From Oscillospiraceae bacterium (GTDB lineage: Bacteria; Bacillota; Clostridia; Oscillospirales; CAG-272), in NCBI GenBank assembly GCA_015063625.1, contig SVTT01000013.1, positions 1-41,329 of the forward strand: 41,329 nt of DNA, written 5' to 3'. A model generated the notes under the pieces. That model saw nothing but the letters and a program-made list of their open reading frames with translations. It ran no database searches and had not been told where the DNA came from. Position numbers and translations under genes: made by a program. Positions 14,300-15,342 of this stretch are shown one piece after another; the first letter of the stretch is position 1; the number at the start of each line of letters is the position of its first letter.

Positions 14300-14690
14300 C
14301 CTGATCGATGATATACGCCGCACGTAATGATCTGCCAAGCCCACGGCTTGGATAAAAAATTCGACAAGCCAAGGCGTTGTGTTCCCAGGCAAGAAAGCGA
14401 GTCGGACACGCCCGAAAGCCCTGATCCCGGTAGGGGGGTCGGCACCCTCGACGACCCGTTTGCCCGCACCTCGCGGCACGCCCTTATATCCGCCATCCCC
14501 TCGCAGATCCCGATGCTCCGCATCGCCCTACGGCTTGATATGCTTGCTGCGCAAACGAGGGATCGATATCATACCGAAACCGACCGAAAGAGAGGTCATA
14601 TCGAATTTTCCGCAAGGCAAATATATCGAGCCAAGTGCGCGAGGCATATCGACAAATTAAATATTCGCATTTGTGTCCACAAATGCAGTG
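14300..14690. repeat. Repeat-rich intergenic DNA with one GTAG-foot hairpin
   Basis: No credible gene. It contains a CCAAGCC-CA-CGGCTTGG hairpin near 14333, a variant TCG-type GTAG hairpin at 14430-14458 with two extra G, and a perfect 20-bp palindrome GCATTTGTG-TC-CACAAATGC at 14667-14686. Confidence 0.6.
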
Positions 14691-14760
14691 CTTCGTATGC
14701 CTGAATCAAGGACTGCAAAAGCCTTATGGCTATTTGCAAGCAAACAGGTTTGCAAAAACA

Positions 14761-14811
14761 AAAGGCTCCCTTGTGTAAAGGGAGCTGTCGCAAAGCGACT
14801 GAGGGATTGTT
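14761..14811. repeat. GGCTCCC...GGGAGC / GTCGC...GCGAC dispersed repeat
   Basis: AAAGGCTCCC-TTGTGTAAA-GGGAGC is followed by GTCGC-AAA-GCGAC and GAGGGATTG. This two-hairpin element is, from memory, a widespread dispersed repeat of gut Firmicutes; a partial copy lies at about 10700-10735. On the minus strand its GC hairpin followed by TTTTG can terminate the small cysteine-rich gene. Confidence 0.65.
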
Positions 14812-14988
14812 TTACAATAAGCTTTTGCTGTTTGAATCAAATTCGGGGAAAGGGAGCAAATAGTAGTCACACTCGTCGCAACAACACTCAAAGCCTTGCT
14901 CTCCGTTGCCAAGACAAACGGTAGGCTCTCCGGGCGTGATTTCCACCCCGGTAACATCTATCACCTTTTGGGAAATATCTTTACTCAT
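14812..14988 (-). CDS. 58-aa cysteine-rich protein behind an attenuator
   Basis: A small gene with ATG at 14986-14988 behind GAGGGAGAT and stop codon at 14812-14814. The protein begins MSKDISQKVIDVTGVE and contains CLGNGEQGFECCCDECDYY; five cysteines (C25, C35, C36, C37, C40) and acidic residues suggest metal or Fe-S binding. The tail is hydrophobic and acidic (LLPFPEFD). There is no signal peptide. I do not recognise the family. The case for a real gene is its context: a consensus promoter, a long structured leader and an intrinsic terminator lie immediately upstream, and the reading frame begins 21 bases after the terminator T tract. No other gene shares the unit. Confidence 0.7.
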   Translation of the reverse strand: MSKDISQKVIDVTGVEITPGEPTVCLGNGEQGFECCCDECDYYLLPFPEFDSNSKSLL

Positions 14989-15008
14989 ATATCTCCCTCA
15001 TCCGCATA

Positions 15009-15168
15009 TAAAAAAGTGCGTCCCAAAGGGAACGCACCGAAAAAATGCATCCCCTTAGTTTGTTGTCACACAAATGCTCTCCCAACGAAGGTATGAGTAA
15101 AAGGGGAAAACACTTTTTACCAAAAGTATTTTCCCTTCGTTGGTCAGAACATATGCAATTTGTGTGAC
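15009..15168 (-). promoter_or_regulatory. Structured leader with terminator/antiterminator switch (candidate riboswitch)
   Basis: Read on the minus strand from 15168. Outer helix P1 pairs GTCACACAAATTGC (15168-15155) with GCATTTGTGTGAC (15077-15065). P2 pairs CCAACGAAGG (15143-15134) with CCTTCGTTGG (15091-15082). P3 pairs GGGAAAATACTTTT (15135-15122) with AAAAGTGTTTTCCC (15117-15104). Downstream, terminator arms GTGCGTTCCC (15037-15028) and GGGACGCAC (15024-15016) are followed by six T. AAGGGGATGCA (15056-15046) can instead pair over 11 bp with TGCGTTCCCTT (15036-15026), which destroys the terminator. CCCCTT in the P3/P2 junction can sequester AAGGGG. The ligand is unknown; I see no match to T-box, SAM, THF, lysine, c-di-GMP or B12 cores. 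Confidence 0.65.
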
Positions 15169-15174
15169 GGGCAT

Positions 15175-15203
15175 ATTTTACCACATTCCTGACGATTTGT
15201 CAA
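15175..15203 (-). promoter_or_regulatory. Promoter of the structured leader
   Basis: Minus-strand TTGACA (15203-15198), a 17-base spacer and TAAAAT (15180-15175) with an upstream TG. The predicted start is at about 15168, the first base of helix P1. Confidence 0.8.
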
Positions 15204-15267: not shown

Positions 15268-15342
15268 TGGAGCTGGTGGTGAGATTTGAACTCACGACCT
15301 GCTGATTACGAATCAGCTGCACTGCCCCTGTGCTACACCAGC
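15268..15342 (-). tRNA. tRNA-Thr (anticodon CGT)
   Basis: A minus-strand cloverleaf. The acceptor GCTGGTG pairs with CACCAGC, the D-stem is GCAC/GTGC, and the anticodon stem GCTGA/TCAGC encloses the loop TTCGTAA with anticodon CGT (reads ACG). The T-arm is GTGAG-TTCAAAT-CTCAC and the genome encodes TCCA. Decodes threonine. Confidence 0.95.

Follow-up and report, generated by a model that had tools for sequence, protein, structure and literature searches.

A conserved leader RNA with attenuator architecture and its own promoter precedes many unrelated genes in Clostridia

What controls a gene that encodes a protein of only 58 residues, five of them cysteine? The question is raised by one locus in the window, the 41,329-nucleotide stretch of DNA from an Oscillospiraceae bacterium analysed here. 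The region upstream of this gene almost certainly has the architecture of a transcription attenuator. Taken as a whole, the sequences make it probable that the region is a cis-acting, riboswitch-like attenuator of a new class, transcribed from its own sigma-A-type promoter, in which a signal common to its hosts tips the balance between two helices, P4 and P5. The RNA is the leader of more than one gene: across the class it precedes many unrelated ones.

What does the locus itself contain? All its features lie on the minus strand. A -35 box, TTGACA (15198-15203), and an extended -10, TGTGGTAAAAT (15175-15185), are followed by the 5' strand of helix P1, GTCACACAAATTGC (15155-15168), at or adjoining the predicted transcript start. 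The 3' strand of P1, GCATTTGTGTGAC (15065-15077), completes a hairpin of 104 nt, from 15168 to 15065, and a conserved ACAACAA comes after it. Within it lie P2, with strands CCAACGAAGG (15134-15143; its letters differ among copies) and CCTTCGTTGG (15082-15091), and an inner hairpin, P4, whose 5' strand spans 15122-15135 and whose equivalent is the helix counted in the class alignment. A stretch at 15101-15121, the conserved GGTAAAA plus the 5' strand of P5, has two potential roles, as the 3' side of P4 or as an anti-antiterminator. Beyond the hairpin, AAGGGGATGCATTTTTT (15040-15056) is both the 3' strand of P5 and the 5' strand of the antiterminator. The antiterminator 3' strand (15036-15026) is the 5' half of an intrinsic terminator (15010-15038). 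A ribosome binding site, GAGGGAG (14993-14999), and the open reading frame (14812-14988, ATG at 14988) complete the unit.

A sequence-only reading of this locus had placed a consensus promoter so that transcription starts at the first base of the 104-nt hairpin, and our coordinates agree with it to the base. Its terminator 21 nt before the start codon of the five-cysteine frame is equally exact: the U run ends precisely 21 nt upstream of the ATG. It had also drawn an 11-bp helix, exclusive with the terminator, between AAGGGGATGCA (15056-15046) and TGCGTTCCCTT (15036-15026), and these pair at 11 of 11 positions, G-U included. The CCCCTT of the hairpin (15106-15101), said to mask AAGGGG, turned out to be the tail of a longer segment (15121-15101), which is able to form a duplex of -18.4 kcal/mol with 15056-15040. 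The leader as a whole is unusually stable (minimum free energy z = -6.6; 0 of 200 shuffles were equally stable). Folds in which the terminator or the antiterminator is enforced come to -63.2 and -64.3 respectively, a gap of about 1 kcal/mol. Around the element we also observed a tRNA gene with an apparent terminator directly upstream, on the same strand (15271-15342, minus strand). Other intergenic repeats, the TCAGTCGC..ACAAGGGAGCC type among them, adjoin the element in the window (14500-14815) and at loci L002, L020 and L023, and they recur in related genomes.

Are these helices a property of one sequence or of a class of RNA? Comparison among leaders establishes both the helices and their mutual exclusivity. 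Five helices carry compensatory changes. They combine into P1+P4+antiterminator, the predicted read-through state, or into P1+P5+terminator, and each combination excludes the other. P5 is a pseudoknot of roughly 13-15 bp in which the antiterminator strand pairs with the apical loop. We aligned 61 leaders, comprising 57 of 63 class leaders and four of the window's type; six class leaders were excluded by eye, their P1 start being mis-set or the leader incomplete. In the P1+P5+terminator state 97.5% of cells are paired and 14 pairs are compensated. Neither figure was reached in 500 shuffles, which ignore kinship among the sequences here as in the tests that follow; the shuffled mean was 91.1%, and alignments slid out of register gave 34-60%. 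In the P1+P4+antiterminator state 95.5% of cells are paired (shuffled mean 89.4%, slid 35-59%) and 13 pairs are compensated, a pair count reached by 3 of 500 shuffles; on the other four measures none of the 500 did so. One antiterminator pair is broken in 15 of 58 sequences of this alignment. The covariation signals of P5 and of the antiterminator are linked, because one strand serves both.

Among 44 leaders compared side by side, two architectures share this logic. The short one, that of the window's leader, measures 145-161 nt and the long one 202-225 nt. An alignment of 26 of the 27 long leaders (L049 excluded) has 96.0% of cells paired, with eight compensated pairs in P1 and six in P5. In these long leaders two P5 pairs are often broken, one in 8 of 25 sequences and the other in 9 of 26; one of the five measures, that of further pair types, was reached by 31 of 500 shuffles, and by eye the antiterminator looks weaker.

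Exchange of strands among leaders tells the same story for P5 and the antiterminator. In 168 of 177 leaders the P5 duplex averages -17.1 kcal/mol with its own strands versus -13.6 kcal/mol with swapped ones, and the antiterminator duplex -13.2 versus -10.7 kcal/mol; none of 60 permutations equalled either. P5 is present in all 44 of the leaders compared first, where its own value was reached by 1 of 5000 permutations for the short type and 0 of 5000 for the long. For P1, 177 of 182 leaders could be scored, five having too little upstream DNA, and 9 or 10 of 10 positions pair in 175 of them (252 of 259 with a second sample included); the count is the best of a scan, by which a score of 9 is estimated to arise by chance in about one leader in six. 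With P1 3' strands swapped, 969 of 3540 combinations still score 9 or 10, because the letters of P1 are common to many leaders. Several consensus pairs are G-U, formable by the RNA strand only, and it is therefore the RNA strand that has been selected. The logic first read from the window, an antiterminator, a terminator and a hairpin that masks the antiterminator strand, is thus conserved with compensatory changes; such changes, proposed at that time as a check, are found in P1 too. Two marks of a transcriptional riboswitch are accordingly present, a 5' secondary structure conserved with compensatory changes and, as read from sequence, a mutually exclusive antiterminator/terminator platform.

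Does the promoter belong to the element? A good -10 was recognised in 159 of 169 leaders, from which the combined consensus is an extended -10 with a -35. In 123 of these 159, P1 starts 4-6 nt past the -10. Given this near-fixed distance, the RNA should start at P1 or close beside it, and it travels together with its promoter.

How widely is the element spread? From 44 sequences we built a covariance model of the 3' module common to both architectures, which runs from the P1 3' strand to the terminator. Comparison of genomes establishes the distribution: counting the window's own genome, the model has matches in 119 of the 196 same-family genomes and, at the level of the class, in 75 of 291 (47 of 181 genera). 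In a sample of the phylum it matches 1 of 249 genomes, that of the window only, and this near-empty result shows the specificity of the model. Stricter filters, which lose weak matches, applied to every search of more than 40 genomes, these three among them. An exact-pattern scan of named genomes returned at least 120 stretches; the 80 matches listed come chiefly from metagenome assemblies of Clostridia from animal guts, and they include an isolate, Anaeromassilibacillus senegalensis An867, whose genome has one match. The window DNA used as a query finds matches in 14 of 59 genomes, its own included, some spanning promoter, leader and gene and others the leader alone with different genes behind it.

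In positive genomes of the class the copy number has a median of three and rises to 17 at most. Three copies lie in the genome of the window; that on C26 stands before an intact homologue of the reading frame, and on contig C25 (L002, 1501-1700) we observed a leader with a Cys-rich copy that is apparently frameshifted, its two partial matches lying in different frames. Leaders also occur in tandem, at L145, L240, L242 and L018; at L145 and L240 two stand in series before one gene. The serial leaders of L145 are two different versions. At L239 (428-907) two 3' modules follow one another directly, twice over, as a double attenuator; the second module consists of a P1-3'-like strand, antiterminator and terminator behind the leader, and the upstream array has no P1 5' strand that is clear by eye. 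At L022 a copy of the RNA has a T-box leader downstream of it (2030-2286; 104.5 bits).

What genes follow the RNA? From 187 typed match rows, after exclusion of 18 rows that were same-place repeats or weak, we assembled 182 distinct class leaders; a second sample used 87 of 92 rows, 83 of them new. A downstream frame was accepted if a start codon with a Shine-Dalgarno-like string lay within 260 nt. By this rule 39 of the 182 leaders stand before Cys-rich homologues, 16 have no reading frame and most stand before other genes. The sequence-only reading had given the RNA the 58-residue gene to control. That partnership is real, the RNA being present at 26 of 30 fetched homologue loci, but it was drawn too narrowly, for comparison places the RNA before many unrelated genes across the class.

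The Cys-rich gene is thus a frequent partner. Homologues occur in 27 of 196 genomes of the same family (own included), and the RNA also accompanies cousins of the gene, identified by motif, in a second family of the class (L272, L302, L309 and L314). Neither the 58-residue protein nor the cousin at L272 matches an entry of Pfam, NCBIfam or PHROG. AlphaFold returns a mean pLDDT of 47 for the window's protein, which has LLPF where 14 of 15 aligned proteins have a cysteine, and so lacks one otherwise conserved cysteine. This one gene family stands behind both leader types, nine short and 27 long, which makes some horizontal spread of leader-plus-gene units likely. A search of plasmids with the Cys-rich protein gave one weak match, in Monoglobus, at 45% identity; the same plasmid has no match to the RNA.

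The other first frames are diverse. We searched 108 of 112 against Pfam, having excluded one each as near-duplicate, Cys-rich homologue, truncated and doubtful: LRR_5 (BspA-type) was found in 15, zinc ribbons in five, helix-turn-helix domains in three, and SLH, ricin-type lectin and Cu_amine_oxidN1 domains in two each. PADLOC gave scattered matches to the 108 proteins, with at most two proteins per family. By a crude hydrophobicity rule for signal peptides, identical for foreground and background, 35 of 53 first frames of at least 80 residues look exported versus 72 of 386 other frames of the same loci (Fisher P 5e-12), and in the second sample 24 of 40 first frames do; since near-duplicate proteins were kept in both samples, the P value is too good. 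Four small protein families, grouped by eye, recur behind the RNA: at L098, L105, L114 and L297; at L101, L242 and L316; at L161, L276 and L290; and at L168, L181 and L249. One member of each was searched, without a significant match in Pfam, NCBIfam or PHROG. No single pathway is indicated by the downstream genes.

How might such an RNA work? RNA polymerase would start at or near P1 and produce the P1-P2-P4 hairpin. The stretch after P1, GGAG..TGCGTTTTT, could then take either of two partners. By pairing with the terminator's 5' half, which lies downstream, it would form the antiterminator, and the gene would be on. By pairing back into the apical hairpin it would displace P4 and form P5, an anti-antiterminator pseudoknot, leaving the terminator free and the gene off. 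The strands would thus form a relay: P4 5'; P4 3', which is also P5 5'; P5 3', which is also antiterminator 5'; antiterminator 3', which is also terminator 5'; and terminator 3'. Compensatory changes are found at each link of it. Because the exclusivity of the helices is conserved, the choice between P5 and the antiterminator would decide the fate of the terminator. Because parts of the hairpin are conserved and copies are many and in tandem arrays, we infer that a signal decides between them and that the RNA itself is the sensor. Such a signal, for which the sequence-only reading proposed a small molecule or a metal, would bind the hairpin and shift the balance of P4 and P5, as in a transcriptional riboswitch; we lean weakly towards a signal that favours P5 and turns the gene off. 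The regulon would be rich in exported and lipoprotein genes.

If the RNA does respond to a signal, then one RNA class would preside over a large accessory regulon of LRR_5/BspA-type, SLH, lectin and lipoprotein genes and of small orphans, and would do so in gut bacteria that are known chiefly from metagenome assemblies. The signal, once identified, would name the regulatory input and give functions to gene families now without any. It is conceivable, though we rate this a little under an even chance, that the RNA represents a new class of riboswitch whose signal is not so far known to work by way of RNA; a metabolite related to the envelope or a second messenger as yet unrecognised would be examples. 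If so, this class would set how strongly surface proteins, secreted proteins and orphan small proteins are expressed in mostly uncultured gut Clostridia, including species without a GGDEF match.

Could a protein, rather than the RNA, be the sensor? A host RNA-binding protein, as PyrR, L10 or an antiterminator protein, might bind P1-P4 or P5 and decide the outcome. The conserved letters inside P1 and the adjoining ACAACAA would suit a protein site, and PMC4538822 describes transcription attenuation of the B. subtilis rplJL-L10 leader by a ribosomal protein. With up to 17 copies per genome, unrelated genes and a patchy spread, however, a widely held protein would be required. ANTAR proteins were considered as a required partner and rejected: there is no match in 43 of the 75 RNA-positive genomes, 25 of them at least 90% complete, nor in the genome of the window. 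Overall we regard control by a protein as unlikely, yet the foremost of the alternatives to the signal-sensing leader. Cyclic di-GMP as a required input was rejected likewise, there being no GGDEF match in 26 of the 75 (own included; 19 at least 90% complete). With both kinds of match so often missing, neither c-di-GMP nor ANTAR regulation is likely as a general input.

Or might the leader not be regulated at all, its competing helices merely fixing a level of read-through or stabilising the 5' end? P1 does sit where a stem protecting the 5' end would be expected, at the transcript start or close to it. A fixed level, however, needs neither a compensated relay of strands nor two serial leaders before one gene, and we consider such a leader improbable.

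A shade less probable still is a mobile promoter or repeat element, MITE-like, that lands before genes by chance. The element is patchy, multi-copy and attached to a promoter, the Cys-rich family has leaders of both types, and full copies are homologous from a point about 50-60 nt before P1 as far as the neighbourhood of the stop codon. The first reading of the window would have taken a hairpin found away from the Cys-rich gene for a MITE; the hairpin is indeed found elsewhere, but promoter, antiterminator, terminator and mostly a downstream frame come along with it. The copies do not form a strand-neutral repeat independent of promoter and gene: the G-U pairs are formable by one strand only, and the order promoter, leader, reading frame is repeated. 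Viral contigs gave two matches to the RNA versus at least 120 stretches in genome contigs, and the Cys-rich protein has no match in phage records and no relative in viral contigs. A translation-coupled, leader-peptide attenuator is very improbable, for although many copies have AAAAATG in the P5 strand, a conserved start codon there was rejected, the codon, the only one examined, being ATG in 26, GTG in nine and neither in 26 of 61 aligned leaders.

Is the RNA, then, already known? The sequence-only reading did not recognise it, and no family of Rfam 15 (4227 models) fits: at the gathering cut-off nothing matches over the element in the window and eight loci, and in E-value mode no family recurs over the leaders of the window stretch and 20 loci. 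Phe_leader, the best-scoring match in the window, was set aside as chance (20.4 bits against a cut-off of 55). The literature searched, including PMC8040213, PMC11109978, PMC7266159, PMC2864571 and PMC8632094, holds no recognisable description of it, although an unnamed entry in a survey table or supplement is possible.

Which known systems does it resemble? T-box leaders (RF00230), like this RNA, act by transcription attenuation in Clostridia and occur in many copies; the element has no T-box match, though the T-box model detects one elsewhere in L022. The pyr leader of B. subtilis has an antiterminator and an anti-antiterminator under the control of PyrR. Like the present RNA, it and the rplJL-L10 leader are built on an exchange among three parts, with masking of the antiterminator by a strand upstream of it. 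Each of them serves one pathway; the present RNA has diverse targets, and its P5 reaches into an apical loop as a pseudoknot. The c-di-GMP riboswitch classes have many copies and a habit of preceding surface genes. This RNA differs from them in occurring in genomes without a GGDEF match. Transcription-terminating riboswitches in general share with it a 5' leader, a conserved hairpin core, an antiterminator/terminator exchange, many copies per genome, tandem copies and unrelated targets; it differs from the known ones in matching no Rfam 15 family. With one strand common to pseudoknot and antiterminator, and partners in the inner hairpin and the terminator, the RNA would be a clear natural strand-exchange device, and its mode of action is probably that of a riboswitch which terminates transcription or of a leader whose antiterminator and anti-antiterminator answer to a protein.
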